Origin: CAVSKL01 sp963728475 [NCBI: Candidatus Eiseniibacteriota bacterium]
GTDB lineage: Bacteria; Eisenbacteria; RBG-16-71-46; JABDJR01
Direction of reading: 5' to 3'
Length of the DNA: 64,000 nucleotides
Assembly (NCBI GenBank): GCA_963728475.1
Contig: CAVSKL010000002.1
Span: 62,001 to 126,000, forward strand
In this document: in pieces, positions 5,936-38,879 of the stretch
How the letters are laid out: each line of letters begins with the position of its first letter
Position numbering within the stretch: the first letter of the stretch is position 1
Position numbers and translations under genes: made by a program
The notes under the pieces: model-generated
The model's database searches: none
Told to the model about the DNA's origin: nothing
Seen by the model: the letters and a program-made list of their open reading frames with translations, nothing else

Positions 5936-7930
5936 ATGATGGCCAGGAAGAAAGAGGCGCCCAAGCAGCGCGCAAGGAAAACCAAGAAGCCGGGCCCGGC
6001 CGGCGGCGCCTCCGGGAAGAAGGCGTCCCCGGGGAAGGCGGTCTCGGGCGCGAAGACCCCCGCGAAGCAGGCGGCCGCCGCCGGGAGGACGGGCTCCGGC
6101 AAGAAGTCCGTCCCCGCCGGGAAGGCGGCCTCCGGGAAGACACGGATGAGCACCACCACCGCACCCGCAAAGGCGCGGCGCCGGCGGAAGCGGGGCGCCG
6201 GCCAGGAAGAGTTCCTGTTCTCCGAGCCGGAAGCCGGGGGAGCGGCCTCCGCGGAGCCGAGCGCGGCCCCGCCGGTCGAGAGCCCCTCCGAATCCCCCCC
6301 GGGGGCCTCGGAGGGGGACGCGGGAGGCGGGAACGGCGCCGGTCACCCCGGGCGCGGGCGAAGGCGGAGGAGCGCGCCCGCCACCGCCGCCTCCATGGCC
6401 AAGAAGCAGCGCGAGATCTCGGTGAGCGAGTTCTTCTCCAAGAACCGGCACTTGCTGGGGTTCGACAATCCGGCCAAGGCGCTGCTCACCACCATCAAGG
6501 AGGCGGTGGACAACTCGCTCGACGCCTGCGAGGAGGCGGGGATCCTTCCCGACATCCGGGTCGAGGTGGAGCAGCTGGCCGAGGACCGGTTCCGGGTGGC
6601 GGTCCAGGACAACGGGCCGGGGATCGTGAAGACCCAGGTGCCGCGGATCTTCGGGCAGCTCCTCTACGGGTCCAAGTTCCACCGGCTCCGCCAGTCGCGC
6701 GGCCAGCAGGGAATCGGGATCTCCGCCGCCGGCATGTACGGGCAGATCACCACCGGGCGGCCGGTGGTGATCCGGAGCCGGGTGGCCAAGGGAAAGCCCG
6801 CCCACCATTTCGAGATCCAGATCGACACCCGCAAAAACTCCCCGGTGGTGAACGTGGACCGGGAGATCGACTGGGAGGGGGTGGACCACGGGACCCGGGT
6901 GGAGATCGAGCTCGAGGCCACCTACCGGAAGGGCTCCCGCTCGGTGGACGCCTACCTGGAGCAGACCGGCCTCGCCAACCCGCACCTGCGCCTGGAATAC
7001 CGGCCCCCCCGGGACGAGCCGGTGGTGTGGGAACGGGCCGCCGAGGAGCTCCCCACCGAACCGCTGGAGATCCAGCCCCATCCCCACGGAATCGAGCTGG
7101 GGATGCTGATGAAGATGCTGGCCGAGACCAAGGCGCGGAGCGTGAAGGCCTTCCTGACCACGGAGTTCTCGCGGGTGAGCCCGCGGGTGGCGGCGGAGAT
7201 CCTGGCCAAGGCGAAGATCCGGGAGAACGCGTCGCCGCGCACCGTGCACCGGAACGCGGTGGAGGGGCTGTTCAAGGCGGTCAACCAGACCAAGCTCATG
7301 GCCCCGCCCACCAACTGTCTCTCGCCGATCGGGGAAGATCTGCTTCTCAAGCAGCTCCGGCAGGAGGTGGAGGCGGCCTTCTATACCGCCAGCACCCGGA
7401 GCCCTGCGGTCTATCGGGGGAACCCGTTCCAGGTGGAGGTGGCGCTGGCCTACGGCGGGAAGCTTCCCGGGGACGAGCCGATCACCCTCTATCGCTACGC
7501 CAACCGGGTGCCGCTCCTCTATCAGCAGGGGGCGTGCGCGGTGACCAAGGCGGTGCTGGGGACCTCGTGGCGGAGCTACCAGGTGCAGCAGTCGAAGGGG
7601 TCGCTTCCCATCGGGCCCATCGTGCTCATGGTGCACATCGCCTCGGTATGGGTGCCGTTCACCAGCGAGTCGAAGGAAGCCATCGCGCACTACCCCGAGA
7701 TCCTGAAGGAGATCAAGCTCGCCATCCAGGAGTGCGGGCGGCGGCTCGCCGTCTACATCCGGCGCGGGCAGCGGGAGCGCGAGGCGGAACGGAAGCGCTC
7801 CTACATCGAGAAGTACATTCCCCACATCGGGATCGCGCTCCGCGAGATCCTCGATCTCTCCGAAGAGCAGGAGGAGAAGATCGTGGTCACGCTCAAGGAC
7901 ACCCTGGAGCGCTCCCGCAAGCAGGACTGA
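5936..7930 (+). CDS. top6B: DNA topoisomerase VI subunit B
   Basis: Encodes 664 residues of the ATP-binding subunit of type IIB topoisomerase. The GHKL ATPase begins near residue 154. The N box is EAVDNSLDAC, the ADP-binding DNGPGI is at about 225-230, and the lid RGQQGIGISAAGMYGQ follows. A helix-two-turn-helix region (SVKAFLTTEFSRVS) and the transducer domain with the switch-lysine segment QQSKGSLPIGP come next. Residues 1-153 are an unusual low-complexity Lys/Ala/Gly-rich basic tail that archaeal enzymes lack; the conserved core could also start at the internal ATG at 6395. Two adjacent ATGs (5936, 5939) are possible starts. The partner subunit A lies at 9783, separated by two kynurenine-type genes. 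Topoisomerase VI is mainly archaeal and plant, and is sporadic in bacteria. Confidence 0.95.
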   Translation: MMARKKEAPKQRARKTKKPGPAGGASGKKASPGKAVSGAKTPAKQAAAAGRTGSGKKSVPAGKAASGKTRMSTTTAPAKARRRRKRGAGQEEFLFSEPEAGGAASAEPSAAPPVESPSESPPGASEGDAGGGNGAGHPGRGRRRRSAPATAASMAKKQREISVSEFFSKNRHLLGFDNPAKALLTTIKEAVDNSLDACEEAGILPDIRVEVEQLAEDRFRVAVQDNGPGIVKTQVPRIFGQLLYGSKFHRLRQSRGQQGIGISAAGMYGQITTGRPVVIRSRVAKGKPAHHFEIQIDTRKNSPVVNVDREIDWEGVDHGTRVEIELEATYRKGSRSVDAYLEQTGLANPHLRLEYRPPRDEPVVWERAAEELPTEPLEIQPHPHGIELGMLMKMLAETKARSVKAFLTTEFSRVSPRVAAEILAKAKIRENASPRTVHRNAVEGLFKAVNQTKLMAPPTNCLSPIGEDLLLKQLRQEVEAAFYTASTRSPAVYRGNPFQVEVALAYGGKLPGDEPITLYRYANRVPLLYQQGACAVTKAVLGTSWRSYQVQQSKGSLPIGPIVLMVHIASVWVPFTSESKEAIAHYPEILKEIKLAIQECGRRLAVYIRRGQREREAERKRSYIEKYIPHIGIALREILDLSEEQEEKIVVTLKDTLERSRKQD

Positions 7931-7951
7931 TCGCGGCCGGAGGATTGGATC

Positions 7952-9136
7952 ATGGCCGATACGGCGGTTCCGGAGCTGACCGAGGCGGAGGTCGCGCGCC
8001 GGCGGGAGGAATTCCCGATCCTGGCCCGCACCACCTACCTGGTGACCCACTCCCTGGGCGCCATGCCGCGGGGAGTGCGGGAGGCGCTGGCGAATTACGC
8101 CGATGCGTGGGCGTCCCGCGGGGTCCGGGCCTGGGAGGACTCCTGGTGGGACATGGCCGCGGAGGTGGCGGACGAGCTGGCGCCGGTGGTGGGGGCGCCG
8201 GCGGGGTCGCTATCGCTCCACCAGAACGTGGCGGTGGCGCTGGCGGTGGCGCTCTCGTGCTTCGAGTTCACCGGGGACCGCCGGCGGGTGGTCTTCGCCG
8301 AGGTCGAATTCCCCTCGGTGGTCTACCAGCTTCGCGAGCTGGAGCGGATCGGGGCGGAGCCGGTCCAGGTGGGGTCCCCCGACCGGTCCTATCCCTACCA
8401 GGCGCTCCTTCGCGAGATCGACGAGCGCACCAAGCTGGTGGTGGTCTCCCGCGTGGTCTACCACTCCGCTGAGCTGGTGGACCTGGCGCCGGTGGCCGCG
8501 CGCTGCCGGGAAGCGGGCGCGATGCTGCTGGTGGACGCCTACCAGGCGGGGGGGACGGTGCCCATGGACCTGGTGAGCGAGGGGGTGGACCTCGCGGTGG
8601 GGGGATCGGTGAAGTTTCTGCTGGGGGGGCCGGGGGTGGGCTACCTCTACGTGCGCCCCGGGCTCGAATCTCGGTTGCGCCCGAGGCTCACCGGCTGGAT
8701 GGCCCACCGGGCTCCGTTCGCGTTCGAGGTGGGGCCGCAGGAGCTTCGCGAGGAGGCGCGGTGGCGGTTCTTGGGGGGCACCCCCCACGTGCCGGCCTTG
8801 TATGCGGCGCGGGTGGGCTACGGGGTGATCCGTGAGGTGGGGCTGCCGGCGATCCGGGCGCGGTCCCTGGACCTCACCGCGCGTTTGATCGCGGCGGCCC
8901 GGGAGCGCGGCTGGCGGGTGGTGACGCCGGTGGAGGACGCGCGCCGGGGAGGCTCGGTCACTCTGGACCTGCCCGAGGCTCCGGACCTGGTGAAGCGGCT
9001 GGCGGCGCGGGAGATCCTGGTGGACTCCCGGCCCCGGGCCGGGGTGCGGGTCGGCCCGCACTTCTACAACACCGCGGTCGAGGTGGATCGTTTGGTGGAG
9101 GCGGTGGAGGAACTCCTGGAGGACCGCCGGTCATGA
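7952..9136 (+). CDS. PLP-dependent class V aminotransferase fold protein, kynureninase-like
   Basis: Encodes 394 residues with the class V (fold type I) layout. The N-terminal THSLGAMP resembles the substrate loop of kynureninase. The PLP-phosphate region follows LHQNVAVA (~89-96), the ring-binding Asp is in LLVDAYQAGG (D195), and the Schiff-base lysine is in GSVKFLLGGPGVGYLYV (K221). The KFLLGGPG pattern is the kynureninase form rather than the cysteine-desulfurase form. It starts with ATG after an AGGA site, 21 bases behind top6B, and overlaps the next gene by four bases. Next to a KynB-like gene, cleavage of kynurenine to anthranilate and alanine is the natural guess. No tryptophan dioxygenase is present in the window, so the substrate is unproven. 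Confidence 0.8.
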   Translation: MADTAVPELTEAEVARRREEFPILARTTYLVTHSLGAMPRGVREALANYADAWASRGVRAWEDSWWDMAAEVADELAPVVGAPAGSLSLHQNVAVALAVALSCFEFTGDRRRVVFAEVEFPSVVYQLRELERIGAEPVQVGSPDRSYPYQALLREIDERTKLVVVSRVVYHSAELVDLAPVAARCREAGAMLLVDAYQAGGTVPMDLVSEGVDLAVGGSVKFLLGGPGVGYLYVRPGLESRLRPRLTGWMAHRAPFAFEVGPQELREEARWRFLGGTPHVPALYAARVGYGVIREVGLPAIRARSLDLTARLIAAARERGWRVVTPVEDARRGGSVTLDLPEAPDLVKRLAAREILVDSRPRAGVRVGPHFYNTAVEVDRLVEAVEELLEDRRS

Positions 9137-9777
9137 CCCGCATCATCGACATCAGCCCGCCGGTCTCGATCCGCACCGCGGTGTGGCCGGGCGACACCCC
9201 GTACACGCTTTCCTGGGTGTCGCGAATGGAGGAGGGGGCGTCCTGCAACGTGGCCTCGGTGGCGACCACGCCCCACGTGGGGGCGCACGCCGACGGCCCG
9301 CTCCATTTTTGGTTGCAAGGCGCGGCGATCGGAGCGGTGGATCTGGAGCCCTATCTCGGCCGGTGCCGGGTGATCGATTGCACCGGGGTGAGGGTGGTGG
9401 ACGAGGAGGCGCTCTACGGACACGAGGTGTACGGGGTGGAACGGCTGCTGTTCAAGACCGGCACCTTCCCCGACTTCGAGCGCTGGAACGACGACTTCGC
9501 CTGGCTCGACCCGGGGCTGGCCCGGCGGCTGGGCCGGATGGGGGTCAAGTTGCTCGGAATCGACACCCCGTCGGTGGACGCGTTCGACTCCACCGAGCTT
9601 CCCACCCACCACGTGCTTCTGGAGCTGGGGGTGCGGAACCTGGAAGGACTGGACCTCTCCGGCGCCGAACCCGGGGACTATGAACTGATCGCCCTCCCGC
9701 TTCGGCTGGCCGAGGCGGACAGCTCGCCGGTGCGGGCGGTGCTCCGCCCGCTTGCCGGCGCCGGCTCGAAAGGGTAA
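9133..9777 (+). CDS. kynB: Kynurenine formamidase (cyclase family, KynB-like)
   Basis: Encodes 214 residues of the metal-dependent cyclase/arylformamidase family. It contains the diagnostic metal-binding motif HVGAHADGPLHF (H48, H52, D54, H58) and a C-terminal HHVLLELGVRNLEGLDLS segment, typical of bacterial KynB. N-formylkynurenine hydrolysis would supply kynurenine to the upstream kynureninase-like enzyme. The ATG overlaps the upstream stop (ATGA), and the stop lies six bases before the GTG of top6A, so all four genes read as one transcript. Substrate assignment rests on the motif plus the neighbour. Confidence 0.85.
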   Translation: MTRIIDISPPVSIRTAVWPGDTPYTLSWVSRMEEGASCNVASVATTPHVGAHADGPLHFWLQGAAIGAVDLEPYLGRCRVIDCTGVRVVDEEALYGHEVYGVERLLFKTGTFPDFERWNDDFAWLDPGLARRLGRMGVKLLGIDTPSVDAFDSTELPTHHVLLELGVRNLEGLDLSGAEPGDYELIALPLRLAEADSSPVRAVLRPLAGAGSKG

Positions 9778-9782
9778 ACACC

Positions 9783-10970
9783 GTGGCCAAGAAGAAGACG
9801 ACGACAGGGGCGGGGAAAGCGACCGGCGGCGGCGCCGGACCGGCGAGGAAGAAGACGGCGTCCCGGACCGGGACCCCCGGCGGGGCGGTCAAGGACACCG
9901 TCGCGCTCATCCGGACCGAGGCCCGCGACATCGAGGGGAAGATACTCAGCCGCGGCAAGCCCACGCTCAAACTTCCGCTCCGCGCGCTCGCCAACGTGAA
10001 GTACTCGGTCAAGAAGGGCCACTTCGAGATGAAGGGAAAGTCGAAGGAACGGACCCTGACCGTGAACACGGTCAAGACCTTCGCGCAGACGCTGCGCATG
10101 ATGTCGCTCTCCAAGGAGCTGGTGGAGGAGGACGACATCGCCTCGAAGCGAGAGGCGTACTACGTGAGCAAGAACTGGGGCGACGCCCGGTTCCTGGAGC
10201 AGCCGGAGTCGGATACGGTGATGGAGGACCTGGAGGCCCTGTTCGCGGTGAACCGGGAGCAGCTCGGGTTCATCCCCGAGGAGAAGGGCGGGGACGTGGC
10301 CGGGCAGCTGGTGGTGATCGACCGGGACCGGGACACCGGGGAGACGCTCCGGATCGACTGCACCAAGTTCGGGAGCGGCGCCTACTCGATCCCGATCTCG
10401 GTGGAGCACCTGGGGTTCGAGACCAAGGCGTCGTTCATCCTGGTCATCGAGACCTCGGCCATGTTCCAGCGGCTGGTCAAGCACAACTACTGGCGCGACG
10501 CCAACTGCATCCTGGCCTCCATGGGTGGCGTGCCCACCCGGGCCTGCCGCCGGTTCATCCGCCGGCTGGCCGACGAGAAGAAGATTCCGGTCTACGTGTT
10601 CGTGGACGGCGATCCCTACGGGTTCATGAACATCTACCGGACCTTGAAGGTCGGATCGGGGAACGCGGCGCACTTGAACGAGTACTTCTGCGTCCCGCAG
10701 GCGAGGTTCCTGGGGGTCACCCCGCAGGACATCATCGATTACGAGCTGCCCACGCATCCCTTGACCGAGACCGACGTGAAGCGCGCCCGGGACGCGATCA
10801 AGAACGACCCCTTCGTCCAGCACCACCGGGACTGGCAGCGGGCGCTGGAGAAGCTGATCTCCATGGGGGTGCGCGCGGAGCAGCAGGCCCTGGCCAAGCA
10901 CGGCCTCAACTACGTGATCGACACGTATCTCCCCGAGAAGCTGGCCAAGGCGGCGAGCTTCCTGCCTTGA
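9783..10970 (+). CDS. top6A: DNA topoisomerase VI subunit A (Spo11-like)
   Basis: Encodes 395 residues, starting at GTG with AAAGGG upstream. Residues 1-35 form a basic Lys/Thr/Gly-rich tail. The 5Y-CAP (winged-helix) domain carries the DNA-cleaving tyrosine in KREAYYVSKNW (Y126/Y127). The TOPRIM domain follows with E223 in LVIETSAMF and the Mg-binding DGDPYGF (D275, D277). With Top6B it forms the A2B2 enzyme that passes one duplex through another and relaxes or decatenates DNA. The two subunit genes are usually adjacent in archaea, and here they flank kynurenine-type genes. The start of the zincin gene overlaps its stop. Confidence 0.95.
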   Translation: MAKKKTTTGAGKATGGGAGPARKKTASRTGTPGGAVKDTVALIRTEARDIEGKILSRGKPTLKLPLRALANVKYSVKKGHFEMKGKSKERTLTVNTVKTFAQTLRMMSLSKELVEEDDIASKREAYYVSKNWGDARFLEQPESDTVMEDLEALFAVNREQLGFIPEEKGGDVAGQLVVIDRDRDTGETLRIDCTKFGSGAYSIPISVEHLGFETKASFILVIETSAMFQRLVKHNYWRDANCILASMGGVPTRACRRFIRRLADEKKIPVYVFVDGDPYGFMNIYRTLKVGSGNAAHLNEYFCVPQARFLGVTPQDIIDYELPTHPLTETDVKRARDAIKNDPFVQHHRDWQRALEKLISMGVRAEQQALAKHGLNYVIDTYLPEKLAKAASFLP

Positions 10971-11989
10971 CCTCGGCCATTGCGCTTCCCATCCTTCTCG
11001 CGCTCTCCGCGGCCGGCGCGGCGGCGGCCCCGTCTTCCGCGGACCCCTCCACCACCCTGGACCTTCGCGTGGAACCGGCGGTCGATCTCTACTTCACGGT
11101 GCGGACGCTGGCGGCGGGGGACGCAGCGCCGCCTCCGGAGATGGCCGAGGCGGTGGCGGGGGCGCGTTCGGTGGGAGCGGCGCTTCCGGCCCCCAGGCTG
11201 TGGGCGCTGGTGGACGGGATGGCCCTGGAGGGGAGGACCGCCGCCGAACTGGCCGCGCCTCTCGACCGGTTTCCCGGCACCTTCGTCGCCTCGACCGGCG
11301 ACACCCTCCGGATCGGGAGGGAGGTCCGGGCCCTGGGCGAAGCGCTGGCCGGAGTCGAACCGTGGTTTCTGGCGCAGCTCTGGCCCGGCCACCGGAAGCG
11401 CCTGACCGAGGCCCGCGACGACCTCGGACGAACCCTGGCCGCGCACCAGGCCGCCTGCTACCCGGCGGTGACGCGGGATCTCGACATGCCCGATCCGGGC
11501 CGCCCGGTGCCGGTCTACCTGGTGGCGGAGGCGCCGCCGCCGGGAGGGGTCACGGTGCGGCGCCGGGACGGCGCGGCGGCCGTGGTGGCGGTGGAGGACT
11601 TCACCGGGTCCACCCTGGCCGAGGTCGTCCTCCACGAGTCGATCCACGTGCTCGACGTGGAGACGGCGGGGGAACCCACCGTGCTCAACCGGGTGCGCGC
11701 GGGACTCCTCGAGGCCGGGGCCGCGCGATCCAGGCCCCGGTACCGCGACCTGCCCCACGCCCTGATCTTCGTCGAGGCCGCCGAGGTCGTGCGGCGGATC
11801 CTCGATCCCGCGCACCGCGACTACGGGGAGACCCACGGCGCCTACGACCGCATGAAGGACGCGATCCGGATCGTGCGGCCGGCGTGGCGCGGCCGGCTCG
11901 ACGGGACGATCGACGCGGACGAGGCGGTCCGGAGGATCGCGGCCGCGGCAGGGCCGTCCGGGAGCCCCCCGCGGAAGCCGGAGAAGTGA
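10967..11989 (+). CDS. Secreted HExxH metallopeptidase-like protein (zincin)
   Basis: Encodes about 340 residues if translation starts at the TTG at 10967, which overlaps the top6A stop (TTGA). The first 20 residues form a hydrophobic Ala/Leu signal peptide. The zinc motif HESIH is at residues ~223-227 in VVLHESIHVLD, and a possible third ligand lies in the following IFVEAAEVVRR helix. No family name could be assigned beyond a gluzincin-type fold. It ends ten bases from a convergent outer-membrane protein gene. Secretion makes a direct role with topoisomerase unlikely, so coupling may be only transcriptional. No in-frame ATG is near, so the start is uncertain. Confidence 0.75.
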   Translation: MTSAIALPILLALSAAGAAAAPSSADPSTTLDLRVEPAVDLYFTVRTLAAGDAAPPPEMAEAVAGARSVGAALPAPRLWALVDGMALEGRTAAELAAPLDRFPGTFVASTGDTLRIGREVRALGEALAGVEPWFLAQLWPGHRKRLTEARDDLGRTLAAHQAACYPAVTRDLDMPDPGRPVPVYLVAEAPPPGGVTVRRRDGAAAVVAVEDFTGSTLAEVVLHESIHVLDVETAGEPTVLNRVRAGLLEAGAARSRPRYRDLPHALIFVEAAEVVRRILDPAHRDYGETHGAYDRMKDAIRIVRPAWRGRLDGTIDADEAVRRIAAAAGPSGSPPRKPEK

Positions 11990-12741: not shown

Positions 12742-13890
12742 TCACCCCTTCGGCCGCACCTCGTCCCGGGTGCCGCGGATGTCCTCGGGGTTCCGCCGGG
12801 CGGCGAAGAAGTCCGCGCGGAGCTGGGACAGCAGGGCCTCGCGGCGGTCGTAGAGGCGCTTCAACGGCCTGGGCGCGTGCTTCGACAGCGCATAGGCGGC
12901 GAGCAAGGGCGCGGCGATGGTGGAGTCGGTGTAGATCACCACCGAGTCGGGGAGCTTCTCCGGGTCCACCTTGCCCCAGGAAACCGCCTCGGCGGGGGTG
13001 GCGCCGGAGAGGCCGCCGGTGTCGGGGCGGGCGTCGGTGACCTGGATGAAGTAGTCGTGGCCGTTGTTCGGGAGCCCCAGGACCTCCTGGATCTGCGGCT
13101 CGGTCTGGAGCACGAAGTTCTTGGGGGAGCCGCCGCCCAGGAGCAGCACCGCGCTCCGCCCGTCGCGCTTGGCCTCGTAGACGATGGCCGCGGTCTCGTT
13201 CACGTCGCGGCTCACGTCGATCACCGGGCCGGCGTCGCGGAGCGCCATTTCGGCCACGTTCATCCCGATCGACGAATCCCCCGGCGAGGAGACGTAGCAG
13301 GGGACCCCCGCCCGGTAGGCCACGGTCAGGAGGCAAGTGTCGGCCAGCCCCAGCGATTCCTCGCGGGCGGCCAGGTGCTTTCCCAGGAGATGATGGAATT
13401 CCGCGGTTCCCATGGAGCGGTGGAACTCCTCGTGCTTCATCACCTCGCGCAGGTAGCTGTCGGTCTCGAGCAGGACCCGGTAGTCGAAGAGCACGTCGTA
13501 GATCCGGATCACCCCCGCCTCGAAGAGTTCGCGGTCGTCGAGCGCCGAGCTCCCCCGGTGGAGCGCCAGCCCCAGCCCGAAGTGGGCGTCGTGGTATAGG
13601 TTGGCTCCGGTGGAGACGATCCAGTCCACGAACCCCGCCTTCACCAGCGGGATCAGGGTGGAAAGCGAGACCCCGGCCGGGCTCAGCGCCCCCGCCACGC
13701 TCATCCCCACCGTGACGTCGGGGTCCAGGCACTTCTCCACCAGGAGGCGCGCCGCCTGCTGCAGCCGGCCCGCGTTATAGGCCAGAAACGCCCCATCCAC
13801 CAGCTCGTCCACCTTCATGCCCGCCGTCACCGGCCGGGGCCGGATGCGGGGCCCGGACAGGAAGCGGTTCTTCGCGTGGTCGTCGGTCAT
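12742..13890 (-). CDS. Deoxyhypusine synthase-like protein
   Basis: Encodes 382 residues of the deoxyhypusine/homospermidine synthase family. Recognisable parts are the NAD-binding region with [14 protein letters not shown], the PGDSSIGMN segment, and [13 protein letters not shown], whose lysine matches the family's catalytic lysine. Bacteria lack eIF5A, so a polyamine product (such as homospermidine or an aminopropyl/aminobutyl-agmatine derivative) is more likely than hypusine. The ATG is preceded by a perfect GGAGGA and overlaps the stop of the P-loop kinase gene by four bases. That coupling suggests a shared process. Confidence 0.9.
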
Positions 13891-14741: not shown

Positions 14742-16211
14742 ATGGAATCGGAGCCTGCTTCGTCACGGCGCCTGGTGGTAGTCTCCCACCGCGGTCCGGT
14801 CACGGTGGAGAACCGGCGGGGGGAGACCCGCTATCATCAGGGAGCGGGCGGCCTGGTGGCCGCCCTCGACCCGGTCCTGAGCGACCGCGGGGGGCTGTGG
14901 ATCGCCGCCGGAGAGAACCCGGCCGGCCACGAGGCCGGCACTCCGTTCGCGCCTCCCGGGCGCGACGGGTACGCGGTGATCCACCTCGACATCCCCCCCG
15001 CGCTCCACGAGCGGCACTATCTGGGCTTTTCCAACCGGGTGCTGTGGCCGCTGGCCCACGGCTTTCCCAACATGGTCCATTTCCAGCGGCGGGACCTGAA
15101 GGGTTACCTGGAAGTGAACGAGATCTTCGCCGACGCGGTGGTGCGCCACGCCCGTCCCGACGATCTCATCTGGGTGCACGACTACCAGCTCGCCGCGGTG
15201 CCCGCCCTGGTCCGGGCCCAGCGTCCCGACCTGCGCATCTCCTTCTTCTGGCACATCCCGTTCCCCGCCTTCGAGGTGTTCCGGGCGCTCCCGTACTACC
15301 AGGACATCCTGGCCGGCATGCTGGGCGCGGACTTCGTGAACTTCCACCTGGAGAGCTACTCGGACGCGTTCGCGGGCGCGGTCCAGAACCTGGTGGGAGG
15401 GCGCCGCTGGCAGCGCCGCCTGGTCACCTGGAACGGGCGCGAGGTCTCGGTGGGGAACCATCCCATCGGCATCGATCCCGACCACTGGGGCCGGATCCGG
15501 AGCGAACCCCGGGTGCTGCGCGAACGGGACCGGATCCGCGACCTCTGCGGCACCCCCCACATCATCGTGGGGGCGGACCGCCTGGACTACACCAAGGGGA
15601 TCCTCCAACGCGTGCAGGCGGTGGAGCGGCTCCTGGACCGGGAGTCCTGGCTCCGCGGCGAGTTCTGCCTGGTGCAGATCGCGGTCCCCAGCCGCACCCG
15701 GGTCCCCGAATACCGCGATATGCGTCGCGAGATCGACGAGACGGTGGGCCGGGTGAACGGACGATTCGCCCGCGGCAACTACGTCCCCATCCGCTACTAC
15801 TACCGGTCGATGCCCGCCCACCAGCTCGCCGCCTTCTACCAGGCCGCCGACGTGGGCCTGATCACCCCGCTCCGGGACGGCATGAACCTGGTGGCCATGG
15901 AGTACGTGATCGTCAACGAGGGGCGGCCGGTGGTGCTGATCCTGAGCGAGCTGGCCGGAGCGAGCGAGATCCTGGACGGGGCGCTCCTGGTGAACCCCTA
16001 CGACCTGGACGGGATGGCCGAGGGGATCAAGCTCGCCCTGGAGATGCCCGAAGACGAGCGCCGCCGCCGCACCGAGGCCCTCACCGACCTGGTGCGCCGC
16101 CACGACGTGCACCGGTGGGCCCGCGCCAACCTGGAGGAACTCCTGGGGGAAGCGCCGGCCTCGTCTCCGGACGAGGCCCGAATGGAACCGACGAACCCGC
16201 TGAAGGCGTGA
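14742..16211 (+). CDS. otsA: Alpha,alpha-trehalose-phosphate synthase (GT20)
   Basis: Encodes 489 residues and makes trehalose 6-phosphate from a nucleotide-glucose and glucose 6-phosphate in the cytoplasm. Family signatures are all present: VVVSHRGPV at the N terminus, GGLVAALDP, WVHDYQLAAVP, FFWHIPFPAFE, GADRLDYTKGI and DGMNLVAMEYV. I start at the ATG at 14742 with AGGGGAA five bases before it; an upstream in-frame ATG lacks such a site. It leads a four-gene trehalose operon, and its stop overlaps the GTG of otsB. Confidence 0.95.
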   Translation: MESEPASSRRLVVVSHRGPVTVENRRGETRYHQGAGGLVAALDPVLSDRGGLWIAAGENPAGHEAGTPFAPPGRDGYAVIHLDIPPALHERHYLGFSNRVLWPLAHGFPNMVHFQRRDLKGYLEVNEIFADAVVRHARPDDLIWVHDYQLAAVPALVRAQRPDLRISFFWHIPFPAFEVFRALPYYQDILAGMLGADFVNFHLESYSDAFAGAVQNLVGGRRWQRRLVTWNGREVSVGNHPIGIDPDHWGRIRSEPRVLRERDRIRDLCGTPHIIVGADRLDYTKGILQRVQAVERLLDRESWLRGEFCLVQIAVPSRTRVPEYRDMRREIDETVGRVNGRFARGNYVPIRYYYRSMPAHQLAAFYQAADVGLITPLRDGMNLVAMEYVIVNEGRPVVLILSELAGASEILDGALLVNPYDLDGMAEGIKLALEMPEDERRRRTEALTDLVRRHDVHRWARANLEELLGEAPASSPDEARMEPTNPLKA

Positions 16212-17035
16212 TCCCGCCCGCCGGCACCGGAGAGCCCGAACCGGTCGAACCCGCCGCCCTGGCCGGCCTCGCCGCCGGAGGCACCGCGAACGGCGGTCCC
16301 GTCGCGCTCTGCCTGGACTACGACGGCACTCTGGTCCCAATCGCCCCCACCGCGGACGAGGCGCGCGCGGACAAGGAACTCCGCTCCCTGCTCGCCGGGC
16401 TCGCCACCCTCCCCCGCATCCGGCTCGCGGTGGTGACCGGCCGGACGCTCGAGAGCCTGGACGAGGCCCTGGGCGAGGTGCCCGGAATCTGGCGCTTTGG
16501 CGTGCACGGCGGGGTGGGGCGGACGCCGGCGGGGGAGGACATTCCCGGCCTCTTCGCGCCCGGCTCCGAGGCCTCGGTGCGGCGGCTGGCCGCGGCCCTG
16601 GAGGGCGTGGCGTGGCCGCCGGGGGTGCGTCTCGAGAACAAGCGGCTGGCGCTCGGGCTCCACTACCGGAACGCTTCCGCCCACGATGCGGAGCGGGCGC
16701 TGGCGGTATTCCGGGAGCGCGCCGCCGCCGCCGCGCCCGGCGAACGGCTGGACCTGTTGTCCGGGAAGCAGATCCTGGAGGCCCGGCCGCGGGGCCTCGA
16801 CAAGGGGCGCGCGGTGCGATGGGTGCTCCGCCGGCTGGCTCCCGCCCGCGTGATCTACGTGGGGGACGACGTGACCGACGAGGACGGTTTCCGGGCCGCC
16901 TCCGGGCATGGATTCGGGGTGCTGGCCGCCCCGGAAGGCCGCCGGAGCGCCGCGCGGTGGCGTCTGGCCGGCCCCGGGGAGGTCCGGACCTTCCTCTCCG
17001 CCCTCGGGTTCAAGATTCGCGGGGACCGCCGATAA
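16208..17035 (+). CDS. otsB: Trehalose-6-phosphate phosphatase
   Basis: Encodes 275 residues of the HAD superfamily and removes phosphate from trehalose 6-phosphate. Motif I is CLDYDGTLVPI (nucleophile Asp), motif II lies in LAVVTGRT, the cap has GVHGGVG and LENKRLALGLHYRN, and motif IV is VGDDVTDEDGF. The first ~30 residues are a Pro/Gly/Glu-rich extension. The start is GTG within GTGA, overlapping otsA by four bases; no later start has a better site. OtsA-OtsB next to each other give a full two-step route. Confidence 0.94.
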   Translation: MIPPAGTGEPEPVEPAALAGLAAGGTANGGPVALCLDYDGTLVPIAPTADEARADKELRSLLAGLATLPRIRLAVVTGRTLESLDEALGEVPGIWRFGVHGGVGRTPAGEDIPGLFAPGSEASVRRLAAALEGVAWPPGVRLENKRLALGLHYRNASAHDAERALAVFRERAAAAAPGERLDLLSGKQILEARPRGLDKGRAVRWVLRRLAPARVIYVGDDVTDEDGFRAASGHGFGVLAAPEGRRSAARWRLAGPGEVRTFLSALGFKIRGDRR

Positions 17036-17042
17036 CCCCACC

Positions 17043-17705
17043 ATGAGCGGTGAACCCTTCGAGTTCGCGTCCGAGTCCTGGCTGGTGCGCTGGACCGGCC
17101 ACCGGGCGGACGATCTCAAGAGCTTCCTCAGCGGCCTGGAGAAGGTGAGCGGGTCCTCCATCTACTATCACTTCTACCAGAGCCTCTTCCGGCGGCACTT
17201 CACCACCGCCGACTACACCCACGATTTCGCCCGCTGGGCGCTGACCTCGCTCAACGCTCCGCCCCTGGCCGAGCGCCTGGCGGTGGTCGATCCGATCGGG
17301 ATCCGGTCCATCCGCGACGCCCGCGACCAGCTCCTCGCCCAGGTGAGGGCGTTTCTCGGCGAGGCGCGCTGGTTCAACCTCCGGGCGTCGGCCCCCTTCC
17401 ACTTCCTGGAGCAGGAGTCGTTCGTGATGCCCACCGGCCATCGCGCCTCCGGCCTCCGGGAGTTCCGGGACGGCCTGGCGCGGGTGGGCACCGCGTCGGT
17501 CTACTACCACCTGATCGAGGCCCGGCTCCGGCTGGAGCGCAACGACAACGACTTCTCCGCGTGGCTGGAGGGGGCCCTGGGCGAGCGCGAGCTGGCCGGG
17601 GCGGTGCGGCGGATCAACGTTCACCGCCGCTCCATCGACGTCACCCGGAAGCTGGTGATCGCGGAGGTGGAACGCCGCCTGGAGGGCGGGGAGGCGGCGG
17701 CATGA
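17043..17705 (+). CDS. DUF5752 family protein with two tandem homologous halves
   Basis: Encodes 220 residues, all-helical and cytoplasmic, with no catalytic motif I recognise. Its two halves are clearly related. Both have ES, then TGHRA, L-[KR]-x-F-x-x-GL, and an [IV]YYH motif, followed by a DF-[AS]-x-W segment and a charged helix ending in V. The family is met next to trehalose/GT4 genes, and here it sits between otsB and treT, overlapping treT by four bases. A role as a partner or regulator of trehalose synthesis is inferred from this position only. Confidence 0.8.
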   Translation: MSGEPFEFASESWLVRWTGHRADDLKSFLSGLEKVSGSSIYYHFYQSLFRRHFTTADYTHDFARWALTSLNAPPLAERLAVVDPIGIRSIRDARDQLLAQVRAFLGEARWFNLRASAPFHFLEQESFVMPTGHRASGLREFRDGLARVGTASVYYHLIEARLRLERNDNDFSAWLEGALGERELAGAVRRINVHRRSIDVTRKLVIAEVERRLEGGEAAA

Positions 17706-18985
17706 GCCCCGGCGCGCGCCCGTTTCCCCTTCCCCAACAACCCTCGGGGCCGACCCTCGACGCCTACATCCCGGTCCTGGGCGAGGCCGAGATCGAGGAG
17801 ATCCGGCGGATCGCCCGCGCGGTGGCCGGGGCCCGCATTCAGCACGTGAACAGCACCCGCGCCGGGGGCGGGGTGGCCGAGATCCTGGAGCGCCGGGTGC
17901 CGCTCGAGGTGGAGCTCGGGCTGGACGCCCGGTGGGACGTGCTCCGGGGAAACGGTCCCTTCTTCGAGGTGACCAAGACCTTCCACAATGCGCTCCACGG
18001 CGCCTCGGTGCGGGTGCTGCCGGAGCATCTGGAGATCTACAACCGCACCCTCGCCGGCAACCTCGACGTCATCCGGACCGACGCCGACGTGGTGGTGGCC
18101 CACGACACCCAGCCCGCGGGGCTGATCCGGGGGCGGGACCGGAACCGCGCCCGCTGGATCTGGCGCTGCCACGTGGACCTTTCCGAGGCCGACGTCACCG
18201 CCTGGGGGTTCGTGCGGGCCATGGTCGAGTCCTACGACGCCGCGGTGTTCCATCTCCCCGACTACACCAAGGACCTCATGGTGCCGCAGTACCTGGTGCC
18301 GCCGGCCATCGATCCCCTGAGCCCGAAGAACGAGGAGCTGGCCGGGGACGAGGTGCGGGCGGAGGTGGAGGGGCTGGGGATCGATCCCGATCTCCCCATC
18401 GTTCTCCAGGTGTCGCGCTTCGACCACCTCAAGGATCCGCTGGGGGTGATCGACGCGTTCGAGATGGCCTCGGGCTGGGAGCCGTCCCAGCTGGTCCTGG
18501 CCGGAGGCGGCGCCGACGACGATCCGGAGGGGGCCGAGGTGCTGGCCCGGGTGCGGGAGCGGGCGGCCGGGGTGCCGCACGTCCACGTGCTCTGCCTCCC
18601 CCCCGACAGCCACCGCGCCGTCAACGCGCTCCAGCGGGCGGCGCGGATCGTGGTGCAGAAGTCGGTGCGCGAGGGGTTCGGGCTGGTGGTGACCGAGGCG
18701 ATGTGGAAGCGGAAGCCGGTGATCGGGACCGCAGTGGGGGGGATCCGCCGGCAGATCCTCCACGGCATCACCGGGTTCCTCGTCCACGGGACCGAGGGCA
18801 TGGCGTACCGCATCCGGCAGCTCCTGGGCGATCCGGAGCTGGGGCGGGCGATGGGGGAGCGGGCGCGGGAGAACGTGCGGCTCAACTATCTCCTCCCCAC
18901 CAGCCTCAAGCAGTGGCTCCTGCTCTATGCCGCCGACCTGGGGGCGGGAGCGGGCATCACCCGGCTGAACGGCACCCTCCGCTGA
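17702..18985 (+). CDS. treT: Trehalose synthase, glycosyltransferring (GT4, TreT-like)
   Basis: Encodes 427 residues. It has the TreT-type N-terminal motif NSTRAGGGVAEIL and the matching WDVLRGNGPFFEVTK and HNALHG segments. VVAHDTQPAGL follows. The GT4 C-terminal nucleotide-sugar site shows VLQVSRFDHLKDP, VREGFGLVVTEAMWKRKPVIG and GGIRRQI. TreT joins glucose and NDP-glucose to trehalose in one reversible step. With OtsAB upstream, the operon therefore encodes two routes to the same sugar. It is the last gene of the operon and overlaps the DUF5752 gene. Confidence 0.9.
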   Translation: MSPGARPFPLPQQPSGPTLDAYIPVLGEAEIEEIRRIARAVAGARIQHVNSTRAGGGVAEILERRVPLEVELGLDARWDVLRGNGPFFEVTKTFHNALHGASVRVLPEHLEIYNRTLAGNLDVIRTDADVVVAHDTQPAGLIRGRDRNRARWIWRCHVDLSEADVTAWGFVRAMVESYDAAVFHLPDYTKDLMVPQYLVPPAIDPLSPKNEELAGDEVRAEVEGLGIDPDLPIVLQVSRFDHLKDPLGVIDAFEMASGWEPSQLVLAGGGADDDPEGAEVLARVRERAAGVPHVHVLCLPPDSHRAVNALQRAARIVVQKSVREGFGLVVTEAMWKRKPVIGTAVGGIRRQILHGITGFLVHGTEGMAYRIRQLLGDPELGRAMGERARENVRLNYLLPTSLKQWLLLYAADLGAGAGITRLNGTLR

Positions 18986-34160: not shown

Positions 34161-35660
34161 TCAAACCTCGGCGGCGATCTCCTCCTCGGTGATCTCGCCC
34201 CCGGAACAGGTGAGCCGGACCGGGGTGTCCTCGAACTGCGTCTCCAGGTGGACCGGCCGGCCCCAGATGAGGGACACGTTCCGGAGGGTGGCCTCGGCGA
34301 AGTTCCGCTGGAGCTCCACTCCCTCGAAGCGGTGCCACAGACCCAGCTCCCCGCGGTTGGCGAAGTTGCCGTCCTGAACGTAGATGAAGGGCTTTCCGTG
34401 GTTGGTGAGCGCGAACAGGAGCTGCTCCTTGACCTTCCGGAACTCGCGGCTCTGGACCTCCCTGGCGCCGGAACGCTCGTTGCGGGCGAAGGTGAAGAGC
34501 TTCTGGTCGCGGCAGAATTCCTCGGTGAAGAAGGTGTCGATGAAGGTGACGTCGTTGTAGATGCGCCGGACCTGGAAGATCTTCTCCCGGCCGAGGCCGA
34601 GCTTCCGGTCCCAGTTGCGCTTCTCCACGTAGTCGTCGCACTCGTCGTATTCCTTGCCGAAGCGCCCCTTGTTCCAGCGGTCCTCGATGTCGCGGAAGAG
34701 TTCCAGCCCGATCTTGTAGGGGTTGAGCCGTCCCGGCTGCATGCTCACCGTGCCCGAGTGGTGGTCGGCGTAGTCGATGACCTCGGCGTCGGTCAACAGC
34801 CGCTGGGTCATGAGGGTGGAGTGCCAGTAGGAAGCCCACCCCTCGTTCATGATCTTGGTCTGGGCCTGAGGCGCGAAGTAGTACGCCTCCTCGCGGATGA
34901 TCGAGAGCACGTCCCGCTGCCAGCGGTCGAGCGGCGCGTGCTCGATCAGGAACAGGAGCACGTCCTTCTCCGGTTCCTCGGGGAACCGGCGCTTGCGCTC
35001 CCGCTCCTCCAGGAGCCGGCGTTCCTGGTCTTCCAGGTAGTCGCGGGGGTTGATGAAGTTGTCCATGTAGTCCTTGGACCGGAGCCGGCGGACGGTGGGC
35101 CGCGATTCCAGGAGCTCCTCCTCCTCGTTCCGGGTATCCCGGCGGCGGCGGATGAAGGGGGAGTGGGGGTCGATGAGGTCGTCGATGGAGAGGCACGCGT
35201 CCACGAACTCCTCCACCTTCTCGATCCCGTAATGCTGGATGTAGCGGCGGATGCGGGCGGCGTGATTGGCGGTCTCGTCCATCATCTTGCGGTTGGTGTG
35301 CGCGAACGAGATGTTGTTCTTGAAGAAGTCGGCGTGGCCGTAGACGTGGGCCATCACCAACTTCTGGTCCATGTCGGTGTTGGAGGCGAGGAGGTAGGCG
35401 TAGACCGGGTTGGTGTTCACCACCATCTCGTAGATGCGGCTGAGGCCGTAGCGGTAGGACTTCGAAAGCCGCTCGTACTCCATTCCGAACCGCCAGTGGG
35501 GGTAGCGGGTGGGGAACCCCTCGTAGGCCGCGATCTGGTTCATCTGCTCGTAGTCGATCATCTCGAAGATGACGGGATCGAAGTCGAGGCCCTCGGAGCG
35601 GGCCAGCTCCTCCACCCTCGCCTTGATCCGGACGAGATGGGGTCCGATGTGGGTGGTCAC
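34161..35660 (-). CDS. spoVR: SpoVR family protein (YcgB-like)
   Basis: Encodes 499 residues, soluble and without signal peptide. The family is recognised by YEGFPTRYPHWRFGMEYE, YGLSRIYEMVVNTNPVYAYL, KLVMAHVYGHADFFKNN and NEGWASYWHSTLM, and by its usual length. Function in non-spore formers is unknown; in enterobacteria ycgB accompanies yeaGH expression in stationary phase. The start is GTG, four bases after the DUF444 gene stop, in the conserved order prkA - DUF444 - spoVR. No sporulation genes are seen, so a general starvation role is more likely than sporulation. Confidence 0.95.
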   Translation of the reverse strand: MTTHIGPHLVRIKARVEELARSEGLDFDPVIFEMIDYEQMNQIAAYEGFPTRYPHWRFGMEYERLSKSYRYGLSRIYEMVVNTNPVYAYLLASNTDMDQKLVMAHVYGHADFFKNNISFAHTNRKMMDETANHAARIRRYIQHYGIEKVEEFVDACLSIDDLIDPHSPFIRRRRDTRNEEEELLESRPTVRRLRSKDYMDNFINPRDYLEDQERRLLEERERKRRFPEEPEKDVLLFLIEHAPLDRWQRDVLSIIREEAYYFAPQAQTKIMNEGWASYWHSTLMTQRLLTDAEVIDYADHHSGTVSMQPGRLNPYKIGLELFRDIEDRWNKGRFGKEYDECDDYVEKRNWDRKLGLGREKIFQVRRIYNDVTFIDTFFTEEFCRDQKLFTFARNERSGAREVQSREFRKVKEQLLFALTNHGKPFIYVQDGNFANRGELGLWHRFEGVELQRNFAEATLRNVSLIWGRPVHLETQFEDTPVRLTCSGGEITEEEIAAEV

Positions 35661-35664
35661 CGGG

Positions 35665-36762
35665 TCACCGCCCCTTCCCCAGGAAGGTCTTGATCGAGTC
35701 CACGACCCCTTCCTTGCCGTCGATGCGGCTGGTCACCAGGAGCGGCGACTCGCCGAAGCGCTCATCCAGGTCCTTGATGAACTGGCCGCTTCCGTAGGGG
35801 CTCTCCACCTGGCCGTAGGAGAACTGGTTCACCCGGGGAAGGAGTTCCTCGGTCAGGAGCTTCACGCACACCTCGGTGTCCCCGCCCCCCCAGTTGTCGC
35901 CGTCGGAGAAGTGGAAGGGATAGATGTTCCACTCGTCGGCGGGAAAGTCGTCCTCCAGGATCTTGCGGCAGAGTTCGTAGGCGCTGGAGATCTTGGTCCC
36001 CCCCGACTCGCGCAGGTGGTAGAAGGTGTGGGCATCCACTTCGCGGGCGGCGGCGTCGTGGACGATGTAGCGGGTCTCCACCCGCTTGTACTGGCTCTTG
36101 AGCCAGGTGTCGATCCAGAACGCCTCGATCCGGACGATCTCCTTCTGCTCGTCGCCCATGGATCCCGACACGTCCATCATGTAGATCACCACCGCGTTGG
36201 CCTGGGGCTCTTCGGTCTCCGTCCAGGAGCGGTAGATGCGGTCCTCCCGGATCGGCACCACCCGGGGGACTTTGGGGTCGTAGGTCCCGGAGGCGATCTG
36301 GCGGCGGAGGGCCTTCCGGTAGGTCCGCTTGAAGTGGCGCAGCGACTCCGGCCCGGTGCGGCGCACCGACCGGTACTTGTCCTTCCGGCTCACCACGCTC
36401 CGCTTCCCGCGGGGTTCGATCCGGGGCAGTTCCAGCTCCTCGCCCAGCATCTGGGCCAGCTCGGCCAGGCTTACCTCGACCTCGAGGATGTGGGCCCCGG
36501 GGGCGTCTCCGGCCTGGCCCTCGCCCTGGCCGTCTCCGTCCACCGGGGAGCCGGGAGCGCCGTCGCCCTGGCCCACCCCGCCCTTGTTGTCCCCGAAGCG
36601 GAAGGTGGGGAGGTCCACCGAGGGCACGGGAATGGAGACGAGCTTGTCGCCCTGCTTGCCGATCAGCTCACCGCGCGTGATGTAGCGGCGCAGTTCCTTC
36701 TTGATCCGCCCGCGCACGATCTGGCGGAAGCGGCCGTAGTCCTGTTCGATTCTGAGAATCAA
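35665..36762 (-). CDS. yeaH: DUF444/UPF0229 family protein (YeaH-like, VWA fold)
   Basis: Encodes 365 residues. After an N-terminal region with a Gly/Asp-rich loop (~residues 60-85), the central domain shows [22 protein letters not shown]. It then has [21 protein letters not shown], a MIDAS (DxSxS) metal site of the von Willebrand A type, and [12 protein letters not shown]. The start codon is TTG. The protein is nearly always encoded with PrkA and SpoVR and probably works with the kinase as a co-chaperone or adaptor. Spacing on both sides (71 and 4 bases) supports a three-gene operon. Confidence 0.94.
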
Positions 36763-36833
36763 GTTGCATCACCCCGAGTCGGGTCGTGGCCGGGGGCCGC
36801 CCTCGCCGGAAAGCGGGGCGGCCGGAGGCCGGA

Positions 36834-38879
<2,046 letters not shown>

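Follow-up and report, generated by a model that had tools for sequence, protein, structure and literature searches.

Kynureninase-like and arylformamidase genes between the topoisomerase VI subunit genes of a bacterial contig

Introduction

Topoisomerase VI, a type IIB enzyme, is sporadic among bacteria, which acquired it from archaea in at least two transfers according to PMC11302465; the main text of that paper mentions neither operon nor gene order nor kyn. In the window, as we call the whole stretch of 64,000 nucleotides of bacterial DNA that was analysed, the two subunit genes enclose a kynureninase-like gene and an arylformamidase gene, which raises the question of whether kynurenine breakdown has any part in the work of the topoisomerase. 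Kynurenine-pathway genes form kynA/kynB/kynU operons in Pseudomonas and others. Among the papers listed on bacterial Top6 and its gene neighbourhood, kyn operons and kynureninase residues, the titles and abstract openings describe neither the present arrangement nor the kynureninase subfamily discussed here. A preliminary description of the locus had proposed that the two genes might be passengers or might act in some unrecognised step connected with DNA topology or damage.

Results

The reading frames place top6B, a kynU-like gene, kynB and top6A in this order on the + strand (Table 1), with 21 bases between top6B and the kynU-like gene, a 4-base overlap (ATGA) at the kynU-like/kynB junction and 5 bases between kynB and top6A; the order, strand and gaps first described (21, -4 and 5) were borne out when the frames were re-read. 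GGAGG stands ahead of the kynU-like and kynB starts. The next reading frame runs across the top6A stop with a 4-base overlap, and the transcription unit may therefore include more than four genes; the product of this frame has no family match in Pfam or NCBIfam. GC3 is 0.937 for top6B, 0.924 for the kynU-like gene, 0.893 for kynB and 0.952 for top6A, close to the window mean of 0.924 (sd 0.022, 52 predicted genes), and the composition therefore shows no sign of a chimeric join.

Table 1. Positions in the window of the four clustered genes and the adjoining reading frame
Gene and product	Position	Strand	Basis
top6B, topoisomerase VI subunit B (GHKL ATPase and transducer; Lys/Ala-rich N-terminal extension)	5936..7930	+	TIGR01052, Topo-VIb_trans
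kynU-like, class-V aminotransferase-type PLP enzyme, divergent kynureninase subfamily	7952..9136	+	PF00266, KYNU_C, 1qz9, residue comparison
kynB, arylformamidase (kynurenine formamidase)	9133..9777	+	TIGR03035, 4cog
top6A, topoisomerase VI subunit A, GTG start	9783..10970	+	PF21180, PF20768, PF04406
Possible fifth gene of the transcription unit, secreted-looking protein with HESIH (HExxH) motif by eye	10967..11989	+	ORF, TTG start

Other genes in the window include a deoxyhypusine-synthase-family gene at 12742-13890 (PF01916, 2e-68), whose protein start resembles, by eye, one near the KynU-like gene in locus L208 (L-numbers denote the loci compared and G-numbers other genomes). A trehalose cluster follows at 14805-18985, with a glycosyltransferase 20 of OtsA type, a trehalose phosphatase, DUF5752 and a TreT-type glycosyltransferase, and three adjacent genes at 34161-38879 resemble, by eye only, a PrkA kinase / YeaH / SpoVR stress cluster.

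With 543.9 bits Top6B exceeds the TIGR01052 cut-off (380.7), and it matches PF09239 (Topo-VIb_trans, 1.3e-60) and PF02518 (7e-11), both the GHKL ATPase and the Topo VI transducer being present. Top6A matches PF21180 (2.2e-61), PF20768 (2e-18) and PF04406 (1.1e-14), all above cut-off, with TP6A_N and Toprim found together. Six Top6A models of NCBIfam also match it, each under its own cut-off (best NF003337, 486 against 675 bits), this cut-off being a naming threshold and not a defining trait; because the Pfam domains and many relatives more than 60% identical agree, we read these scores as reflecting lineage-specific cut-offs. At L002, for example, Top6A is 80% identical to that of the window over 357 columns. 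The two genes are those of a predicted topoisomerase VI, expected to carry out ATP-dependent strand passage as an A2B2 complex.

KynB lies barely above the TIGR03035 cut-off (224.0 against 223.05 bits) and resembles the solved enzyme 4cog (E 2e-51), whose HTGAHCD aligns with HVGAHAD at residues 48-54, giving KynB the arylformamidase motif, which we take to supply the metal ligands. The KynU-like protein matches PF00266 (2.6e-24) and KYNU_C (1.5e-14) and reaches 130.3 bits on the kynureninase equivalog TIGR01814, below the cut-off of 246.4. Among solved proteins the Pseudomonas kynureninase 1qz9 comes closest to it (E 8e-38), a match that we took as enough to predict the same fold. The original enzyme labels were thus broadly right, KynB being above its cut-off, with the amendment that the kynureninase belongs to a divergent subfamily under that of TIGR01814.

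The subfamily is defined here by 22 distinct genomes that match the window KynU at E <= 1e-50, 11 of which were aligned with the window to give 12 subfamily rows, the other 11 having been found in later sampling. For comparison the alignment included 1qz9, a G121 enzyme that passes the cut-off of TIGR01814 with 454 bits, and five G001-phylum rows, four of which carry canonical kynureninase residues. Seven residues (K227, D201, W256, R375, Tyr226, His204 and Asp132, in Pseudomonas numbering) have roles in the Pseudomonas enzyme that are described in the structural literature. The first four are kept, together with T282, in 12 of 12 subfamily rows, all of which retain the PLP lysine and the substrate arginine. 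Tyr226 is replaced throughout by Leu, His or Val and Asp132 by Val, Asn, Leu or Met (V at both positions in the window), and His204 is Gln in 11 rows, the window among them, and His in one.

Members of the subfamily occur in 3 of 7 genomes of the G002 phylum and 1 of 5 of the G004 phylum, the rest coming from two overlapping samples in which 8 of 193 and 21 of 386 genomes matched. A further 21 of 80 genomes of the G001 phylum match the window KynU at E <= 1e-30 (best 35% identity, E 3e-41) and are not counted among the 22. Since the gene finder gave wrong-strand genes on several GC-rich pieces (L092 and L207, for example), the spacings of kyn and tryptophan dioxygenase (TDO) family genes were taken from reading frames. 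In five of the 22 genomes, kynB lies directly downstream of the kynU-like gene, with a spacing of -4 in G003, G013 and G014, 4 bases in G249 and 51 in G292. In six others, a TDO-family gene lies directly upstream, overlapping by 4 bases in G121, G168, G218, G315 and G442 and separated by about 30 bases in G196. The TDO-family genes of G121, G168, G196 and G218 are above the PF03301 cut-off, and the proteins of G315 and G442 share 71-72% identity with that of G168, which itself scores 204 on TIGR03036 (cut-off 391). From this linkage, which covers 11 of the 22 genomes, kynurenine is the likely substrate, and the subfamily is a candidate alternative kynureninase.

In the other 11 genomes, tblastn found neither kynB nor a TDO-family gene beside the kynU-like gene, three of these (G100, G389 and G425) having it on contigs shorter than 5 kb. 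PF03301 matched in six of 16 KynU-carrying and related genomes searched, while neither G249 nor any of the seven G002-phylum genomes gave a match; in the window, one motif search and a family scan covering about 4.1-22.8 kb found no tryptophan dioxygenase. Homologues of kynB also occur in genomes with no match to the window KynU at E <= 1e-30, in G002 (42% identity) and G001 (47%). In G003 the kyn pair is preceded by an oligopeptidase-like gene (by eye) and a DUF2779 gene, an order that G014 appears by eye to share. G168 encodes, 0.9 kb upstream of its TDO gene and on the same strand, a 704-aa protein resembling salicylyl-CoA 5-hydroxylase (860 bits, cut-off 1078), with one opposite-strand gene in between.

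A scan of a genome collection for Top6A gave 53 loci, by title 17 Planctomycetota-type, 12 Krumholzibacteriota or -iia, 2 Gemmatimonadota-type, 2 Acidobacteriota-type, 1 Eisenbacteria, 1 Deltaproteobacteria, 14 further bacteria and 4 archaeal (3 Woesearchaeota). In searches of whole genomes, 45 of the 80 from the G001 phylum proved to have Top6A (E <= 1e-40), as did 22 of a sample of 386 around G002 (E <= 1e-20); 8 genomes of the G226 phylum gave none, and no relatives were found in viral contigs. The flanks of top6A were compared for most, not all, of the whole-genome matches. Same-strand top6B and top6A within 8 kb were counted as a pair and merged by Top6A sequence, which left 68 distinct pairs apart from the window, a sample biased toward genomes whose Top6A resembles its own. 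The survey used tblastn without composition adjustment, and its totals equal those with adjustment.

None of these 68 pairs has kyn genes between the subunits, the outcome of the genome search that the preliminary description had proposed. The window resembles the known bacterial and archaeal top6B-top6A operon in that both subunits are identified by Pfam and run B then A on the same strand, and differs in its two unrelated intervening genes, whereas 57 of the 68 other pairs have no recognised gene there. Estimated gaps in these 57 reach 403 bases, and in 10 of them lie at 161-403 bases, which may hold small ORFs. Ten pairs carry an M32 carboxypeptidase gene in the interval (L016, L017, L018, L019, L022, L023, L030, L032, L186 and L189/L191) and one an elbB gene (L199:6248-6904, in G026; NF008747, 277 bits against a cut-off of 180). 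The M32 loci form one Top6A sequence group, with titles partly Krumholzibacteriota; the proteins of L030 and L019 are confirmed by profile (Pfam PF02074), and the others rest on tblastn matches to L030 at 44-96% identity. Like the window, the operons of this group hold an unrelated same-strand enzyme gene between the subunits, but the insert is different, and M32 occurs across a clade in ten pairs where the kyn insert occurs once. The slot thus has three unrelated inserts (M32, elbB and the kyn pair), each in different lineages.

That the subunit genes are normally adjacent, as first stated, holds for those 57 of 68 pairs. At six other top6A loci with at least 8 kb upstream (L027, L035, L038, L039, L046 and L150), a profile search found no top6B within 8-10 kb upstream of top6A, and the subunit genes may be split; all but L150 are titled as Planctomycetota-type MAGs. 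Loci without a visible top6B, most of which end shortly upstream of top6A, were not counted as pairs. When the Top6B profile was run on ten such pieces and one control, only L142 and the control gave matches.

On a Top6A tree of 56 pairs and the window, which omits pairs with less than 60% Top6A identity or a short Top6A, the M32 label requires 3 changes, a number that none of 500 shuffles reached or undercut, and the four labels taken together require 5. The tree is compatible with a single early gain of M32 followed by losses, and with separate gains of elbB and kynUB, and from these label changes it follows that unrelated inserts come and go in the slot. In the Top6A and Top6B trees the window stands near, not firmly inside, groups titled Eisenbacteria and Krumholzibacteriota, a placement with weak support. 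A P5C-dehydrogenase-like protein of the window, so named by eye, matched in 43 of 193 genomes sampled, scoring best in G226 (62% identity) and reaching its highest identity over the full length in G016 (66%).

In four loci of one phylum (L002, L003, L143 and L144), a SufS-type cysteine desulfurase gene lies directly downstream of top6A. We had considered this class-V aminotransferase-type gene as a relocated kynU and rejected the idea, the L143 gene scoring 504 bits on SufS (cut-off 475.1) and L002, L003 and L144 matching L143 at 52-86% (tblastn); a separate kynU-like gene in G003, G013 and G014 also counters it.

Discussion

We favour, at a probability of about 0.86, the reading that a kynurenine-catabolism pair has lodged in a permissive slot of the Top6 operon as a passenger with no role in topoisomerase action. 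A two-gene unit, the kynU-like gene followed by kynB, would have been inserted between top6B and top6A in the lineage of the window, and would owe its retention to an interval open to same-strand genes and to translation signals that were not disrupted. For the two enzymes we predict hydrolysis of N-formylkynurenine to kynurenine by KynB, followed by cleavage of this product to anthranilate and alanine by the KynU-like protein; both genes would be co-transcribed with top6A and have no part in what the topoisomerase does. Gene content, spacing, the absence of the kyn genes from the 68 other pairs, the kyn unit at other sites and the other unrelated inserts are the observations behind this account. 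Relatives do have top6B and top6A adjacent and kyn genes elsewhere, which, by the condition that the preliminary description had set, points to a local insertion and supports the passenger proposal. The tight coupling also noted at the outset is real as regards the 4-base kynU/kynB overlap; the same overlap is present without top6 in G003, G013 and G014, and it therefore belongs to the kyn pair itself.

Some points run counter to the insertion account. A gap of 5 bases to top6A is also expected under selection for co-expression. The searches described above showed no TDO in the window, the G002 phylum or G249 that could supply N-formylkynurenine. Finally, half of the KynU-subfamily genomes (11 of 22) have no kynB or TDO neighbour, and kynB occurs without KynU in G001 and G002. 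Compared with the kynA/kynB/kynU operons, the window shares a kynB above cut-off, and its KynU subfamily adjoins kynB or TDO genes in half of its genomes, but no kynA was seen beside the pair, the score of KynU falls short on TIGR01814, and the residues Tyr226, His204 and Asp132 are replaced.

An unlikely alternative shifts the weight from the insert to its site: in this group of bacteria the top6B-top6A interval would be a recurrent, tolerated place for unrelated enzyme genes, kept because translational coupling across the insert sets the dose of Top6A, with the kyn genes representing an alternative kynureninase subfamily of different active-site arrangement. Slightly less probable again is co-regulation without a biochemical link, in which kynurenine breakdown is coupled to a programme of growth phase or stress for which Top6 is needed as well, and the order has been selected for expression timing. 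Genes on one strand that overlap or almost touch, with GGAGG ahead of kynU and kynB, would suit such a programme, and three different enzyme inserts in the slot, with a SufS-type gene after top6A in four pairs, suggest that expression together with top6 is acceptable or even useful; however, a peptidase, a DJ-1/PfpI-type protein and kynurenine enzymes have no evident common function, and in G003, G013 and G014 the subunit genes, with no kyn gene between them, are on a different contig from the kyn pair.

A functional link, in which topoisomerase VI or the DNA damage it handles is affected by a kynurenine-pathway metabolite (kynurenine, anthranilate or an NAD precursor), is very improbable: the gene order that invites the idea is seen in one contig only and is unrepeated in the 68 other pairs, all seven G002-phylum genomes have Top6A, yet G002, G015, G016 and G017 have no KynU match (E <= 1e-30), and nothing was found that ties kynurenine chemistry to topology, which leaves the proposed step in DNA topology or damage unsupported. 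Equally improbable is an assembly artefact joining two loci, for although the arrangement was seen once, on a single contig, two such joins would be needed, both junctions are gene-tight with frames intact on either side, and GC3 is window-like.

For topoisomerase VI, the meaning of a probable kyn passenger in its operon is small: unrelated genes can lie between the two subunits of a bacterial top6 operon. The KynU-like subfamily, which lacks residues held important in the Pseudomonas enzyme, may matter more than the Top6 result.
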